IMG/VR virus record: IMGVR_UViG_3300046320_000217
Coordinates: 1-37,873 of that record
Length of the DNA: 37,873 nucleotides
Reading direction: 5' to 3' (one strand)
DNA from: a virus
The stretch's first letter is position 1; the number at the start of each line of letters is the position of its first letter. Below, one piece after another: positions 19,030-32,778 of this stretch. The position numbers were made by a program, and so were the translations under genes. The notes under the pieces are model-generated. The model was not told the DNA's origin, did not search any database, and was given only the letters and a program-made list of their open reading frames with translations.

Positions 19030-19064
19030 CGGAACCTATAGCCATTTATATTCACACAAACTTG

Positions 19065-19137
19065 AAAGGTGTCTCTGATTCGAACAGAGCTAAGATCGTT
19101 TTTAGGAATCGAAGCGAGCCAACTTTCCCAACACCCT
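19065..19137 (-). tRNA. tRNA-like gene, isotype not assignable
   Basis: The acceptor arms AGGGTGT and ACACCTT pair over 7 bp with one G-U. The T-arm CTCTG-TTCGAAT-CAGAG is perfect, and GTTGG fits a D-loop. The 73-nt span is normal. The anticodon arm (CGATTCCTAAAAACG) does not form a 5-bp stem with U at position 33, so I cannot read an anticodon. Confidence 0.55.
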
Positions 19138-19585: not shown

Positions 19586-19654
19586 CAGGGGCGGCTGGGT
19601 TCGAACCAGCGACTTAGGCGCGACCTAATGCTCTACCAACTGAGCTACATCCCT
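19586..19654 (-). tRNA. tRNA-like gene with short anticodon arm
   Basis: The D-arm GCTC-AGTTGGTA-GAGC and T-arm GCTGG-TTCGAAC-CCAGC are canonical. The acceptor AGGGATG/CGCCCCT pairs except for one A-C. The anticodon arm TTAGG-TCGCG-CCTAA has only a 5-nt loop. If the stem is shifted, the loop GTCGCGC would read anticodon CGC, but then the variable loop is too short. The gene is about 69 nt, 3-4 nt below normal. Confidence 0.6.
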
Positions 19655-20202: not shown

Positions 20203-20304
20203 ACCACAGTTACGGAAATAAAAGAACTTTATTCCCACGATGCGTCCAGATGAATTAACTGGACCCTTGTTTTGCTTCCATTTTTGTTTGCAAAGGAGAA
20301 TTTT

Positions 20305-20397
20305 GTGGACCCGGAGGGAATCGAACCCTCGTCCTACAAAGAATATAACATAGTCTTAATGAGTAATTGGGGGCAATATAAATACTGCGCCATCCAC
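20305..20397 (-). tRNA. tRNA-like element, isotype not assignable
   Basis: GTGGAT/GTCCAC pair at the ends, the T-arm GAGGG-TTCGATT-CCCTC is perfect, and GGCGCAGT is a typical D-arm start. The D-loop lacks the GG pair, and the middle (ATTACTCATTAAG) gives no proper anticodon stem. The length is 93 nt. Confidence 0.5.
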
Positions 20398-20402
20398 CAC
20401 CT

Positions 20403-20945
20403 TATTTTGAAAAAACAAAGAAAACTAGATTCACTCAATAGTTCAACTTTCTGGTTCCAAGTAGTTGACACTCATCTTCTTTATGCAACTTATGCTGCGA
20501 ATCTCATTGGTGAGAAAGAAGGACGGAAATTAATTTGTTTGCCGCTTATTTGTTTTTAACTTTTTAGAGAACTGTTAATCTCTACTCAACTATATTCTAC
20601 TACATTGTAGTCAATACCGGTCGGGCCCATGTTTTCAAAGAACTTTATTCTGTTTCCAGATTTGGAGAAAGTCTAATTCGCTATAAGTATAGTGACTTCC
20701 GAAACCCACTTAAGGATCGCAAGATTTGTGCCTCTTACTAGTGGCCGTACGTCTTTCCGTTCTTGTCAACTTAAATATGGCTACCAGTTAGTTCTTGGCC
20801 TTCAAACTCTTTTACTTGATTATCTAAGATTTGGTTAAGCAAATTGTATAGCGTAAAACTTCCCTTAAAGCGTGGGACTATATTTGTCTTATAGCCGCTT
20901 CTTACTTGCATAAACTTTAAGAGTATACATTTTGTTTTGTTGTTG
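20403..20945 (-). ncRNA. Structured non-coding leader of the tRNA-like unit (unknown RNA)
   Basis: About 540 nt lie between the unit's promoter and the first T-arm, with no coding frame and no T-loop. Starting near the expected 5' end, a long hairpin joins AAGCGGCTATA (about 20901) to TATAGTCC and CGCTT. Others are CTATA-CT-TATAG inside GGAAGTC...GACTT, AGAGA...TCTCT, and a 46-nt branched element (20476-20521) closed by CTTCTTT/AAAGAAG around CTCA-CCAA-TGAG and GCA...TGC. The region is more GC-mixed than the coding DNA. Some pieces may be decayed tRNAs. It matches no RNA family that I can name. Confidence 0.4.
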
Positions 20946-28886: not shown

Positions 28887-29021
28887 CTACACCGTAATGC
28901 GCTTAAATTTCCAAAACAATTGTCTTGTGTCGAGTCTTTTAAATTCGTGTATCAAAACACCTTCTAATTGTGTGCTTTTAAGCTCGTGTCGGCTAAAATC
29001 AATTTTTGTTCTTCTGTTCAT
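28887..29021 (-). CDS. 44-aa basic ORF at the distal end of the cassette region
   Basis: ATG at 29021 opens MNRRTKIDFSRHELKSTQLE, continuing to ...WKFKRITV and TAG at 28887. It starts about 50 nt after the first attC-like element, the same layout as the other cassette genes, and uses richer codons than the phage core. It is short and unassigned. Confidence 0.4.
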   Translation of the reverse strand: MNRRTKIDFSRHELKSTQLEGVLIHEFKRLDTRQLFWKFKRITV

Positions 29022-29071
29022 TTTATTATTTTTATTTGTTAGTAATCAATTAAATCTGTGCGAAAAAGCTC

Positions 29072-29178
29072 GAACGCATAACGCGCAATTGGCAAAATAA
29101 AAGCCATCAAGTGTAGCGCTAACCATCAACGGTAGTGCAAGGCTTTTACTTCGCCAATCGCCGCCGTTACCTGCAAGG
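29072..29178 (-). repeat. attC-like palindrome A
   Basis: Left arm 29081-29105 (ACGCGCAATTGGC... to ...TAAAAGCC) pairs with 29141-29167 (GGCTTTTACTTCGCCAAT...) around a 35-nt loop. The outer ends ATAACG and CGTTAC also pair. It lies immediately 3' of the MazG-like gene. The 3' end on the minus strand is GCGTTATGC, close to the GTTRRRY core of integron sites. Confidence 0.55.
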
Positions 29179-29520
29179 CTACGTGACGTTTTCAAAATAA
29201 AGTTTATTACTTGGATTGTCGGGGTTCAAATTATTTAACGCCAACCGACCAAAAGAACCTTTCTCAACCGACTTTTCAATTAAAGCAACCGATAATTGTT
29301 CGTGAGTAAATCCATTCTGTTTTGCAAAGGAAAAAACAACCTGTATCAAATCAACAAATTCCATAATATCCTTATGGTCGCTTGCTTGAATTTCGGCTAA
29401 TTCCTCGCGAACTTTAATTGCATAAAGTCGGTTCAATTCGTCTTGGTCGGCAATAGTTTCCCATTCACCCTCTTTTAGTTTTTCAGTAATAAACTTTCTG
29501 ATTAATTTCTTTGGTTTCAT
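29179..29520 (-). CDS. MazG-like house-cleaning NTP pyrophosphatase (phosphoribosyl-ATP pyrophosphohydrolase-like)
   Basis: This 113-residue all-alpha protein has the MazG-superfamily pattern of a short house-cleaning enzyme. KVREELAEIQ (about 37-46) carries the metal-binding EE. DIMEFVDLIQVV supplies the E..D of the second helix. The tail EKSVEKGSFGRLALNN has the conserved K-x-x-x-G-x-F-x-x-R. The family hydrolyses non-canonical or excess NTPs. G+C is visibly higher than in the phage core genes, and it is framed by attC-like elements A and B. This supports capture as a cassette. Confidence 0.72.
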   Translation of the reverse strand: MKPKKLIRKFITEKLKEGEWETIADQDELNRLYAIKVREELAEIQASDHKDIMEFVDLIQVVFSFAKQNGFTHEQLSVALIEKSVEKGSFGRLALNNLNPDNPSNKLYFENVT

Positions 29521-29540
29521 TTTCGTTATTTAATTAAGTT

Positions 29541-29585
29541 CCTACCGATAATCCGCCCAGCGGGTAACGGCGGTTTTGTACATTA
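29541..29585 (-). repeat. Short attC-like element B
   Basis: CCGCC (29553-29557) and GGCGG (29569-29573) form a compact stem. The right edge TGTACATTATT resembles the CTGTACGTTAT edge of elements C, D and F. The large central region of those elements is missing. It lies between the MazG-like and 69-aa genes. Confidence 0.4.
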
Positions 29586-29795
29586 TTAAAGGTTTTTACA
29601 ATTAATATACTTAAAAGCATCTGTTGATATGTCTAATTTAATAACCCCAAACTCTTCCATAAGGGTTTGAAGACTTAAAAGAAAGTCAATAGGTGCTTGT
29701 TTTGACTCAACTTCATAAATTGATTTCGCATCTTCGGTGTATCTTACATCTCCAACGAGATATATTTTTTTTTGTGGCATATATTTATCTGACAT
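29586..29795 (-). CDS. Cassette-borne hypothetical protein, 69 aa
   Basis: MSDKYMPQKKIYLVGDVRYT... is a small alpha/beta protein with no recognised motif. Elements B and C flank it. The stop immediately precedes element B, as in other cassettes here. Confidence 0.5.
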   Translation of the reverse strand: MSDKYMPQKKIYLVGDVRYTEDAKSIYEVESKQAPIDFLLSLQTLMEEFGVIKLDISTDAFKYINCKNL

Positions 29796-29834
29796 TTAAA
29801 AGAAAATTTTATTGTTAACTTTAAAAGAAAACCA

Positions 29835-29972
29835 TCATACAACACACTATTAGCGTCATGGTGGCAAAAGGAAGTAACTGAACATTAGAACACTATTCAA
29901 CATAAGTAAGTAAATTAAACATTTGGAATACTAAATCCACCACGACGCTAATAGCTGTACGTTGGCAGAAAC
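29835..29972 (-). repeat. attC-like palindrome C
   Basis: An 18-bp stem, CTATTAGCGTCATGGTGG (29847-29864) with 29937-29954, has one mismatch and a 72-nt loop. The edges are ATACAAC and GTACGTTGG. The loop contains AGTAACTGAACATTAG, shared with D and F. It starts right after the stop of the 129-aa gene. Confidence 0.65.
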
Positions 29973-29982
29973 CTTATGGAAA

Positions 29983-30372
29983 CTACCAATCAATATCTAT
30001 TCCGTAATCACCTTTTTTAATTAAGCCTTTTTTATAAAGGTCATTTGCAACAGTATGAACGTCAGGATAGAAATTTCTACCCCAAAATAAATCAAGTTGA
30101 TAATCGTCTGTTTGGTTTGGTATAGGTTGTGCAACATCACGTTTTAGCCAAACATCAAATTTAACGCCCATTTCTTTACCATTGACAACTTCTGGAATAG
30201 AATCGTTCATAGATTCGTCTTCTGATAAATCAGATGGAATTGATATGAAAAATACACCACGACTTCGACAATCATCTTGTTGTTGAAAACTGTATTTTTT
30301 ACCGTAAGTTTTTATAACTAGCTCGTCCCAATCGGACAATTGGACAAGTTTTAAACTTGAATATTTTAACAT
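29983..30372 (-). CDS. Cassette-borne hypothetical acidic protein, 129 aa
   Basis: This soluble acidic protein (MLKYSSLKLVQLSDWDELVI...) ends DYGIDIDW. It has a KEMGVKFDVWLKRD strand pair and an LFWGRNFYPDVHTVANDLYKKGLI C-terminal segment (read as two adjoining pieces). No family is recognised. It is flanked by elements C and D. Confidence 0.55.
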   Translation of the reverse strand: MLKYSSLKLVQLSDWDELVIKTYGKKYSFQQQDDCRSRGVFFISIPSDLSEDESMNDSIPEVVNGKEMGVKFDVWLKRDVAQPIPNQTDDYQLDLFWGRNFYPDVHTVANDLYKKGLIKKGDYGIDIDW

Positions 30373-30414
30373 GATATTTTTAATTTAGTTAGACACATTG
30401 TTCGACAAAAAAAG

Positions 30415-30552
30415 GCATCTGCCAACATGGGCTTAAATATATGTCGGCTGACGTGGTTAATTGAACAGTCGAATACTATTTGGCAACTGTAAGTTACTGA
30501 ACATTAGTTTTTCAAATTCCGCCACATCTTTAAGCTCTGTACGTTATGTGCC
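30415..30552 (-). repeat. attC-like palindrome D
   Basis: GGGCTTAAATATATGTCGGC (30429-30448) pairs imperfectly with 30519-30537 (..GCCACATCTTTAAGCTC). The edges are GCCAACATG and CTGTACGTTATGTG. The loop carries AGTTACTGAACATTAGTTTT, the same core as in C. It is 3 nt from the stop of the 113-aa gene. Confidence 0.65.
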
Positions 30553-30555
30553 ATT

Positions 30556-30897
30556 TTAAGTCGACACCGTAAAAGGTAACCATATTTTTGACAATTTATC
30601 TAAATGTGGTTGAAGTAAAGATTTGATGTTTTCAAAATTACTCTCTCCTACATTTTCAATAAAGTGTGGGGCAAAAATCCCTTTTCGTTGGTTAATGATA
30701 AAGACTTCCATATAAAGCATACCATCATCTCGTTTTTTAATATCCCATCTAAATATTAAATTCATATCAATATCAGCATCTTTATATTCATCATAAAAAT
30801 CATGAAAGTTGTCCCATTTTTTACCAGCATCGTTTGAGTAATAGTTACTATCTGAACAGTAGTAATCGTGGTCTTGTAATAAATCTTTAAATTCCAT
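30556..30897 (-). CDS. Cassette-borne hypothetical protein, 113 aa
   Basis: This very acidic protein (MEFKDLLQDHDYYCSDSNYY...) has an aromatic, Asp-rich first half and a C-terminal LLQPHLDKLSKIWLPF helix. No family is recognised. Elements D and (half) E flank it. Confidence 0.55.
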   Translation of the reverse strand: MEFKDLLQDHDYYCSDSNYYSNDAGKKWDNFHDFYDEYKDADIDMNLIFRWDIKKRDDGMLYMEVFIINQRKGIFAPHFIENVGESNFENIKSLLQPHLDKLSKIWLPFTVST

Positions 30898-30942
30898 TTT
30901 ATTGTTTTTTATTTTGTTAATTAAATTTTAATCCGAAAGAAA

Positions 30943-30985
30943 AACGGCAACTAACACGGGTTTGGCAAAATGGATGTTCGGTAAT
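30943..30985 (-). repeat. Half attC-like element E
   Basis: CGGCAACTAACACGGGTTTG followed by GCAAAATGG resembles the left edge of elements D and F, but no matching right arm with TGTACGTT is found before the mini-HTH gene. It is probably a truncated site. Confidence 0.4.
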
Positions 30986-31009
30986 TCTATTTGACATTTG
31001 TTTTTAATT

Positions 31010-31189
31010 TTAAAGTTTTGCAATCTCTTTCTTGAAATGTTTCCTTATCGATACTTGACTTTTGACATTTGGTTGTCTTCCATTTCTCCACGCTTTGACT
31101 GTATATTGAGATACTATTAGTTTTCTTGCTATTGCACTATCTGTTAGTTCAGACAAATCAAAAATTCTATTTAGAAAATCTTTATTCAT
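31010..31189 (-). CDS. 59-aa helix-turn-helix protein
   Basis: ATG at 31189 to TAA at 31010. MNKDFLNRIFDLSELTDSAI leads into ARKLIVSQYTVKAWRNGRQP: a helix, a turn (SELTDSAIARKL), a recognition helix (SQYTVKAWRNG) and a basic tail. The SxxTVxxWxxGxxxP ending is typical of XRE/Cro-type mini-repressors. It is found alone in the cassette region. Confidence 0.62.
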   Translation of the reverse strand: MNKDFLNRIFDLSELTDSAIARKLIVSQYTVKAWRNGRQPNVKSQVSIRKHFKKEIAKL

Positions 31190-31207
31190 ATTTTATAATG
31201 TATTCAC

Positions 31208-31330
31208 TTAATCTATTTTAAAACTATGTATTTCAAAAATACTCCTGCTTGCATTGTTGTGTGCTTGCTTAAACAGTTCGTCGCTTGTTGAGTTATAACC
31301 ATCTGTAAGTTTGAGTGAGTAGTAATCCTA
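31208..31330 (-). pseudogene. Possible 3' remnant of a cassette gene
   Basis: A start-less frame reads DYYSLKLTDGYNSTSDELFK, continuing QAHNNASRSIFEIHSFKID to TAA at 31208. The composition looks protein-like, but no ATG precedes it and a TAG lies just upstream. It may be the tail of a gene truncated by recombination. Confidence 0.3.
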
Positions 31331-31349
31331 TTCTGTCTTTTTTTTTATT

Positions 31350-31589
31350 TTAAAAGTTTTTATTAAACTCTTTTATGAATTCAACCACATAACTAAACAT
31401 CTGAACAATAAAACATATTAAGAATACCAACGCAATCACTACCCACGATAAAGGGTTCCAAAGTCTTAATCCATTAGAGTTGTAGGATCCGTCGCTTCTT
31501 TTTCCTTCATGTTTTAAAGAATACACCCAAACTAAAATAGTTTGTACAATAATCATTATTCTTGTTTCTAAACTTATTTTATTTTTCAT
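31350..31589 (-). CDS. Small membrane protein, 79 aa
   Basis: Two hydrophobic segments, TRIMIIVQTILVWVYSL (about 8-24) and LSWVVIALVFLICFIVQMF (about 47-65), are separated by a polar loop with KRSDGSYNSNG. It lies next to element F and is probably cassette-borne. The function is unknown. Confidence 0.5.
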   Translation of the reverse strand: MKNKISLETRIMIIVQTILVWVYSLKHEGKRSDGSYNSNGLRLWNPLSWVVIALVFLICFIVQMFSYVVEFIKEFNKNF

Positions 31590-31642
31590 TTGTTTTAGTT
31601 ATTTCAAATTTATTTGATCAATTCCTTTTTTCTAAGAAATCA

Positions 31643-31784
31643 TCCGCCAACATGATATTGAATAAATTGGGGGCTGACGGAATAAGGCTAATCCGTAGTT
31701 TTTCAATTTTTCAGAAGGAAGTAATTGAAACATCAGATTTTCAAAAACCTCAACTTCTTCAATATCTGTACGTTATCGGCAACC
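31643..31784 (-). repeat. attC-like palindrome F
   Basis: GATATTGAATAAATTGGGG (from 31654) pairs with CCTCAACTTCTTCAATATC (31748-31766), 15 of 19 positions. The edges are GCCAACATG and CTGTACGTTATCGG. The loop has AGTAATTGAAACATCAG, a variant of the core in C and D. It touches the stop of the 100-aa gene. Confidence 0.65.
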
Positions 31785-32087
31785 CTAAAGAAACATCCGC
31801 GCAATTTCATCACGAGTTTTACTTTCATTAGCTAATTGACCTTTTAACTTTTCGACTTCTTTTAAAGTTGATACATATTCACAAAGAAGCAATAATGCTT
31901 TGCTTTGCGTTCTAAGTATGTTATTTTTTACTTGAGGATGATTTGGATTAAGCACAGCCATACCTTCCTGTCTGTTTGCTTGGTTACACATATCATTAGC
32001 AGCTTCACGGCAATACTCAACGTCAAGCATTAATACTGGCAAAGCAATCATTTTGATTATCTTTGCTTGCTGTTCTGATTTTTCCAT
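31785..32087 (-). CDS. Cassette-borne hypothetical helical protein, 100 aa
   Basis: MEKSEQQAKIIKMIALPVLM... is almost wholly helical, with two cysteines in DVEYCREAANDMCNQAN and a coiled-coil C-terminus (STLKEVEKLKGQLANESKT). No family is recognised. Elements F and G flank it. Confidence 0.55.
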   Translation of the reverse strand: MEKSEQQAKIIKMIALPVLMLDVEYCREAANDMCNQANRQEGMAVLNPNHPQVKNNILRTQSKALLLLCEYVSTLKEVEKLKGQLANESKTRDEIARMFL

Positions 32088-32129
32088 TTTTTTTATTATT
32101 TGTTGTTAAAAATTAATTCAGAAAGAAGG

Positions 32130-32270
32130 GCAGCAGATAACAGCACATCGCCAAAAGAGGCGGTGTAGTGGTTATATCAACTGTTGTGCTTCGTATTATC
32201 ATTTGTGGTTTAATCAAGTTTTGTGCTTCGTATTCGCCTCCTTCGGCAATCTGCAAACCGTTATAGGGCA
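32130..32270 (-). repeat. attC-like element G with internal direct repeat
   Basis: CGCCAAAAGAGGCGG pairs in part with CGCCTCCTTCGGCA (about 32235-32248). The edges are CAGATAACAG and CCGTTATAGG. The loop holds TTGTGCTTCGTATT twice (from about 32185 and 32221). It lies 3' of the 94-aa gene and closes the cassette-like region on this side. Confidence 0.5.
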
Positions 32271-32272
32271 TT

Positions 32273-32557
32273 TTACAACCACCCAAAAGCAGACGCAGCC
32301 ATTTCACCAATTGTGCATAAATCAGCATCTTCTATTTCAGGATTATCTTCATCATATTCGCCATCTGCATTGCAATAGCATTTCTCAATTTTTGCACCTA
32401 AAGCATCCCACTTGTCTGCTTTAACTTTAAAAGCGTAAACTTGCTCTTTAGTATGTTCCATTTCAGCTATTTTATCATGTAGCCAATAAGTAAATTGCTC
32501 ATGATTAAATGGGGCTTCATTTGACATTCTAAGTTCATTAAGCTCTTTCCTTGTCAC
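32273..32557 (-). CDS. Hypothetical phage protein, 94 aa
   Basis: It has MTRKELNELRMSNEAPFNHEQF and then KADKWDALGAKIEKCYCNAD, continuing to ...EMAASAFGWL. The KADKWDxLxxKI segment followed by an acidic C-terminus is one I recall from small accessory phage proteins of unknown role. It overlaps the lipoprotein gene by 4 nt, while element G touches its 3' end. It may therefore be the first cassette or the last ordinary phage gene. Confidence 0.55.
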   Translation of the reverse strand: MTRKELNELRMSNEAPFNHEQFTYWLHDKIAEMEHTKEQVYAFKVKADKWDALGAKIEKCYCNADGEYDEDNPEIEDADLCTIGEMAASAFGWL

Positions 32558-32778
32558 AACTTTACGCAGTTTATGAGATACATATCGAAATTCCCGTTTA
32601 GTTTGTCTACAATTTCTTGAGAAGTATACTCTCCTCTGATTTCAATTGTATTACTGTTTCCAACTGGAAGCAATAAATTTGTCATTTGAAAACTACATTG
32701 GAATTTTGCTGGTTCTACTTGTTTTGATTCACAAGAGAATAATGCAACTAATACTATGATTGAGATTAATTTTTTCAT
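32554..32778 (-). CDS. Small lipoprotein, 74 aa
   Basis: A typical lipoprotein signal, KKLISIIVLVALFSC, places the lipidated cysteine at residue 16 with a lipobox-like LFSC. The mature part starts CESKQVEPAKFQCSF, about 58 residues with two more cysteines that could form a disulphide. It is the first gene after a CTTAAG-type promoter in the accessory block. Small early lipoproteins in other phages, such as T5 Llp, block superinfection by masking the receptor. That role here is an inference. Confidence 0.65.
   Translation of the reverse strand: MKKLISIIVLVALFSCESKQVEPAKFQCSFQMTNLLLPVGNSNTIEIRGEYTSQEIVDKLNGNFDMYLINCVKL

Follow-up and report, generated by a model that had tools for sequence, protein, structure and literature searches.

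The record IMGVR_UViG_3300046320_000217 of IMG/VR, analysed here over its full length of 37,873 bp (the window), is a contig of a tailed phage that encodes a tail sheath, capsid, portal and terminase, and almost all of its genes lie on the minus strand. At 29.0–32.8 kb, small codirectional open reading frames (ORFs) on that strand are interspersed with palindromes. We conclude that this array very probably consists of gene cassettes belonging to an integron-like system that Bacteroidota phages encode themselves and that is distinct from classical integrons.

Matching ends of the window cassettes

A preliminary description, made from the letters of the window, had proposed an integron-like array of mobile cassettes with structured recombination sites. 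Its small same-strand ORFs and its palindromes just 3′ of stop codons were borne out: the array comprises five imperfect-palindrome hairpin sites and two half-sites, all directly 3′ of stop codons. On the minus strand each palindrome is laid out as AAC, ∼5 nt, stem, loop, stem, 1–3 nt and GTT, more loosely so at sites E3 and E4 (Table 1). Here, R″ denotes the sequence with AAC at its end and R′ the sequence that begins with GTT. The classical R boxes are RYYYAAC and GTTRRRY. The attC-like edges of the preliminary description, whose ‘CTGTACGTTA’ is the R″-side motif AACGTACAG viewed on the plus strand, therefore stand only in part; the AAC...GTT ends are present on the minus strand, but GTTRRRY is matched by none of the seven window R′ boxes, and the sites differ from the classical attC that IntI integrons use. 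A deviating base composition was a weak claim, because the GC content of the array (0.30–0.34) barely differs from the phage average. In all five hairpins the coding strand folds better than its complement.

Complementarity between the start and the end of a cassette is a hallmark of integron cassettes. Because only these two ends meet in the excised circle, recombining cassettes can be told from simple hairpins by whether a cassette's own R′ and R″ match. Four window cassettes have both ends intact. In these, 36 of 52 positions beyond the GTT of the start are complementary to the cassette's own end, and none of the other assignments among the 840 possible scores as high as this own-cassette pairing; when the two sides of a single hairpin are compared in their array arrangement, 19 of 65 positions match, about chance level. 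The complementary arms of one unit are ∼14 nt long. Across 85 cassettes from 27 phage loci, own arms matched at a mean of 8.15 of 11 positions versus 4.0 in shuffled pairings, and among the cassettes closest to the attI-like site described below, at least 9 of 11 positions matched in 55 of 79, versus 19 of 774 controls. Of 204 cassettes, 166 retain a G·T wobble at arm position 11, with G on the R′ side and T on the R″ side. This wobble pairs on the coding strand and becomes a C-A mismatch on the other, which makes it a candidate strand-selection signal.

Recurrence of window cassettes in other phages

Cassette C4 recurs in loci L004 and L005 (86% DNA identity over 429 nt), in an array with a methyltransferase cassette, and cassette C7 recurs in L174 (92% over 429 nt). 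Similarity between C4 and L005, and between C7 and L174, starts inside the 5′ hairpin and stops at, or a few bases from, the R″ AAC. A relative of the C4 protein (88% amino acid identity) is encoded in an unrelated 195-kb viral contig; this contig bears the recurring C4 cassette, whose R″ AAC is followed directly by a gene for a tyrosine recombinase of 269 aa. We found no relatives of cassette C5 in viral contigs, none of C4 in genome contigs, and none of C2. The C5 protein family itself occurs in two huge uncultured phages, LR756501 and LR756502 (735 and 642 kb), as well as in Vibrio, Aeromonas and Pseudomonas phages; its members in LR756501 and LR756502 were rejected as cassettes, there being no flanking cassette sites.

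An attI-like junction beside the recombinase

The recombinase of the C4-bearing phage gave 27 matches in a first scan, and its family was aligned in at least 153 viral contigs, of which the best 80 were kept. In 102 of 111 loci examined, the AAC of a cassette end abutted a conserved attI-like element a short distance upstream of the recombinase gene, with a consensus from 88 distinct sequences of AAC/TAYTATATAT (the slash marks the junction). Walking upstream from this junction yielded 204 cassettes in 70 loci, with up to 10 per locus. The longest ORF pointed toward the recombinase in 182 of 187 cassettes and away from it in 5, and a hairpin lay 5′ of R′ in 183 of the 204. Spacers were mostly 5–6 nt at R″ and 1–3 nt at R′. 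The R′ consensus was GTTA[TG]NNGYAGT, the classical GTTRRRY occurring in 8 of 204. When circular sites were reconstituted, the coding strand was the more stable in 179 of 183 and the complement in none. A Vibrio integron read in the same way as a control came out in the classical state, with R′ at attI and genes directed away from intI.

In locus L075, hairpins of ∼50 nt (TAACGTCCGATGATAA...TTATCATTTGTTA) at positions 55, 581, 1537, 2164 and 2981 are nearly identical before five different cassette genes; the hairpins are homogenised within this one phage. In locus L090, at ∼830–860, a TATCTTTG motif like the Bacteroidota −7 element lies between a cassette stop codon and R″ and is directed at the recombinase, so that some cassettes may carry a promoter for it.

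Natural exchange at the AAC

Comparison of closely similar loci located the breakpoints. L089 and L092 are identical over 2,647 nt downstream of the AAC, a stretch that includes attI and the recombinase, and L068 and L069 over 1,225 nt; L124 and L125 are 99.97% identical over 3,000 nt. Each of these pairs shares 1 nt upstream of the AAC and carries unrelated cassettes there. Ten contig pairs have their breakpoint at the AAC, with only 1–3 bases shared upstream. L090 equals L092 plus exactly one 797-bp unit, of the form hairpin, GTTATGTACAGGTGC, gene, GCACTTGTACATAAC, inserted between the AAC and attI, and the two loci have the next cassette in common as well. L030 contains a perfect 320-bp duplicate running from AAC to AAC. 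Where homologous hairpins occur at different loci, similarity mostly begins at the AAC, and in several cases it extends into the downstream gene.

As natural sequence variation, these comparisons show that the mobile unit is hairpin, R′, gene and R″ ending in AAC, with the hairpin belonging to the 5′ side of its gene, and that units have been gained, lost or swapped exactly at the AAC adjoining attI in recent natural exchange. Own-cassette arms, shared cassettes and natural insertion polymorphisms thus uphold the proposed mobile cassettes with structured recombination sites. The integron interpretation itself is partly supported: the cassettes are mobile, but the hairpin moves with its downstream gene, and the only recombinase tied to the cassettes is encoded by phages and lacks the IntI-specific domain.

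The recombinase family

Members of the family are 266–271 aa long and have an invariant catalytic set of R, K, H, R, H and Y; some loci carry interrupted integrase reading frames. Relative to VchIntIA, about 48 residues are missing, the IntI-specific insertion being absent, and the spacing between two fixed motifs is 53–62 residues in the phage family versus 101–102 in 11 IntI. The recombinase scored 154 bits against TIGR02249, under the cut-off of 265. Its top NCBIfam match was recomb_XerA_Arch (E 1.2e-56, under the cut-off of that model), and its top PDB sequence match was 4a8e, an archaeal Xer. In a quick tree, to be read for clades and not for exact branching order, the phage recombinases grouped as a single clade (SH-aLRT 93), separate from that of IntI (100). 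The integrase relatives L043 and L044 were rejected as family members; they lack an attI junction and branch outside the clade. An AlphaFold model (mean pLDDT 87, pTM 0.63) was nearest in the PDB to VchIntIA-attC (2a3v) and XerA, with modest TM-scores of ∼0.5. The additional (I2) domain of IntI has been called defining (PMC9668308), and its helix is described as the basis of IntI recombination of folded single strands and as not found in other proteins (PMC7790495). For these reasons we do not file the phage family under IntI.

Phage-type recombinases also occur in several Bacteroidota genomes, including the isolate Flavobacterium urumqiense CGMCC 1.9230 (L039), where the gene has primase, head protease and terminase genes around it in a region resembling a prophage. 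A search of 50,697 records of isolated phages gave no match of at least 60% identity, the best among the matches listed being ∼34%. One phage-type recombinase (L034, 55% identity) lies on a 3.1-kb contig binned as Bacilli, probably an artefact of binning. In the phylum of F. urumqiense, 84 of the 296 genomes sampled have a classical IntI above the NCBIfam cut-off, a high share for Bacteroidota.

Features of the window

The coordinates of sites and cassettes are collected in Table 1. We found no integrase, integrase remnant or attI in the 37,873-bp record, and for this record the preliminary description was right that no integrase is present and that the array may be a stripped one. A suspected attI remnant at the array end (‘AACACTAATCACTTATTATG’, 28879) was rejected, its attI score being −20 versus a median of 12 for real sites. 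Either the array never possessed a recombinase and attI of its own or these have since been lost; the most fitting interpretation is that a system of the kind described here built it and that, as far as the record extends, it no longer has a recombinase of its own. TerL relatives of the window phage were too distant to reveal an empty site. The 5′ end of the array is degenerate, and an R′ of C1 was not found there by reading.

Table 1. Recombination sites and cassettes of the window array.
Feature	Position	Strand	Basis or remark
Hairpin site E7 (R″ AAC of C1 ... R′ GTT of C2)	32139-32262	-	Palindrome; arm test; folds better on coding strand
Hairpin site E6	31649-31774	-	Palindrome; arm test; folding
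Half-site E5 near 30955 (L′ arm and R′ of cassette C4; R″ half missing)	30939-30973	-	Matching site complete in L004/L005
Hairpin site E4	30424-30545	-	Palindrome; arm test; folding
Hairpin site E3	29841-29963	-	Palindrome; arm test; folding
Half-site E2 near 29568 (L′ arm end and R′ of cassette C7)	29553-29580	-	Corresponding hairpin complete in L174
Hairpin site E1	29080-29168	-	Homologous to hairpin L017:2495-2581 (80.5% over 149 nt)
C1: ORFs 32273-32557 and 32554-32778	32273-32778	-	R″ present
Cassette C2 (R′ to R″), gene 31785-32087	31772-32141	-	Arms match 12/16
C3, between E6 and half-site E5: ORFs 31350-31589 and 31010-31189	31010-31589	-	ORF 31010-31189: weak transcriptional-repressor-family match
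Cassette C4, gene 30556-30897 (phrog_7880, unknown function)	30543-30955	-	Arms 12/16; same cassette in L004/L005
Cassette C5, gene 29983-30372 (phrog_27943, unknown function)	29961-30426	-	Arms 13/16
C6 gene, between E3 and half-site E2	29586-29795	-	ORF
Cassette C7, gene 29179-29520	29166-29568	-	Arms 11/16; same cassette in L174

The ORF at 32554-32778 (minus strand), at the 5′ end of the array, encodes a small, lipoprotein-like product that weakly matches the family of Cor superinfection-exclusion proteins (phrog_1119, E 0.006). An Rfam scan of the window returned no attC-like family, its matches being tmRNA and tRNA only. The tmRNA (20303-20628) and two tRNAs (19064-19137, Phe, and 19586-19654, by Rfam), all on the minus strand, lie amid the structural genes.

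Discussion

Like classical integrons such as those of class 1 and the Vibrio superintegron, the phage loci have a tyrosine recombinase beside attI, arrays of single-gene cassettes and capture at attI, and their hairpin sites have the order R″-L″-L′-R′ with own-cassette arm complementarity. The attI and insertion that mark a classical integron are found in the recombinase loci (102 of 111; L090 and L092) and not in the window. In contrast to classical integrons, the phage recombinase has no IntI-specific I2 domain, the R′ box is GTTA[TG]NN... instead of GTTRRRY, and the arms are ∼14 nt. Classical crossover is at R′, with the hairpin 3′ of the gene and the genes directed away from attI; in the phages the hairpin is 5′, the genes are directed toward attI, and folding favours the coding strand. 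The mutual arrangement of attI, hairpin and crossover would be kept, and it is the gene that is reversed. The ‘atypical’ Treponema integron, in which intI and cassette genes have the same direction with intI toward attI and genes away from it (PMC3607928), resembles the phage loci in that recombinase and cassette genes are transcribed in one direction. It differs because its genes read away from attI, whereas the phage cassette genes read toward attI with the recombinase beyond it. Xer enzymes resolve dimers at double-stranded dif. Unlike XerA, XerC and XerD, the phage recombinases adjoin cassette arrays in phage contigs, and in the quick tree they form their separate clade.

We propose that the recombinase recognises two similar cores, R″-5 nt-L″ in the cassette site and AAC-5 nt-TATAT in attI. 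Its substrate would be the folded coding strand of a circular unit, in which the unit's own R″ and R′ lie side by side. The coding strand would be cut at the R″ AAC and the unit then joined to attI, and the genes would therefore face the recombinase; they would probably be read by phage transcription from upstream, and not from a Pc-type promoter at attI. In classical integrons, the choice of the bottom strand sets gene orientation (PMC8946536). The proposal is supported by a mirror logic: relative to classical integrons, the phages show the opposite strand bias, the opposite attI side and the opposite gene orientation at once. That the recombinase carries out the exchange is what we infer from comparing these loci. 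Among 143 cassette proteins scanned, there were 13 DNA methyltransferases and one Acb2/Tad1 match, most of the proteins having no Pfam match, and this cargo suggests a role in counter-defence.

Phage-borne cassette arrays were already known. Qi et al. 2023 described integrons and CALINs (clusters of attC sites lacking an integrase) in phages, some of whose arrays are without integrase, as in the window, and showed that IntI1 can use some phage-borne sites (PMC9892861). One of their phages, Polaribacter phage P12002L, bears cassettes of the window type as judged by reading. The complete integrons listed there have IntI-type integrases, the sites were assayed with IntI1, and in the part available a dedicated phage recombinase family, a matching attI or reversed polarity is not reported (PMC9892861). 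Our search of the open literature, with subscription papers and preprints outside its scope, found no earlier description of the association of phage recombinase and cassettes, of the attI of this recombinase or of the reversed polarity; recombinase and polarity thus appear to be undescribed in the open literature.

The most serious alternative is that the window is a classical CALIN, in which bacterial IntI integron cassettes are carried by a phage and moved by a host IntI at R′ (G/TT). IntI is common in the sampled Bacteroidota, its ability to use phage-borne sites is on record, and own-cassette arms occur in classical integrons too, as the Vibrio control confirms. However, the polarity is opposite, the R′ boxes misfit GTTRRRY both overall and in the window, and the 8 bacterial genomes with a phage-type recombinase all lacked an IntI over the cut-off. 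A CALIN is an array of at least two attC without integrase; the five hairpins and two half-sites of the window belong to a divergent type. We regard this alternative as improbable. General homologous recombination, or homing endonucleases swapping modules between similar hairpins, would fit phages that recombine freely and hairpins that are near-identical within one phage (the five copies of L075), but the AAC breakpoints of the ten contig pairs share just 1–3 upstream bases, and the arms of unrelated genes match their own partner only, which makes this explanation very improbable. Ordinary terminator hairpins between vertically inherited small genes, although a stop codon does precede each hairpin, would predict neither arms matched across a gene, nor the same gene between different hairpins in unrelated phages, nor insertion of a whole unit (L090/L092), and can practically be dismissed.

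Several points weigh against a phage-encoded system as the source of the window array. The window has neither recombinase nor attI, so that the builder of its array is deduced from shared cassettes; the recombinase is tied to the exchange by association; most of the contigs are uncultivated; and the strand-energy comparison for the Vibrio control was not informative. In addition, IntI1 is reported to use P12002L_attC2 on the bottom strand, at R′, the top strand giving 0 recombinants (PMC9892861), so a classical IntI can handle at least one related site classically.

With these points weighed, a phage-encoded system remains our explanation of the array. With moderate confidence, we go further and favour a second kind of integron, in which phage tyrosine recombinases other than IntI capture single genes through folded sites without I2, the genes facing the recombinase. 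It would be either independent of IntI or ancestral to the acquisition of I2, and would give phages a shared pool of counter-defence genes. Tools based on GTTRRRY or IntI are unlikely to detect these sites reliably. If our reading is true, a natural family that handles hairpin sites without I2 makes the origin of integrons directly testable. Many Bacteroidota phages, including contigs of at least 300 kb, would run their own cassette-exchange platform, and phages would swap counter-defence genes in a single step, with cassettes that are already present in unrelated phages.

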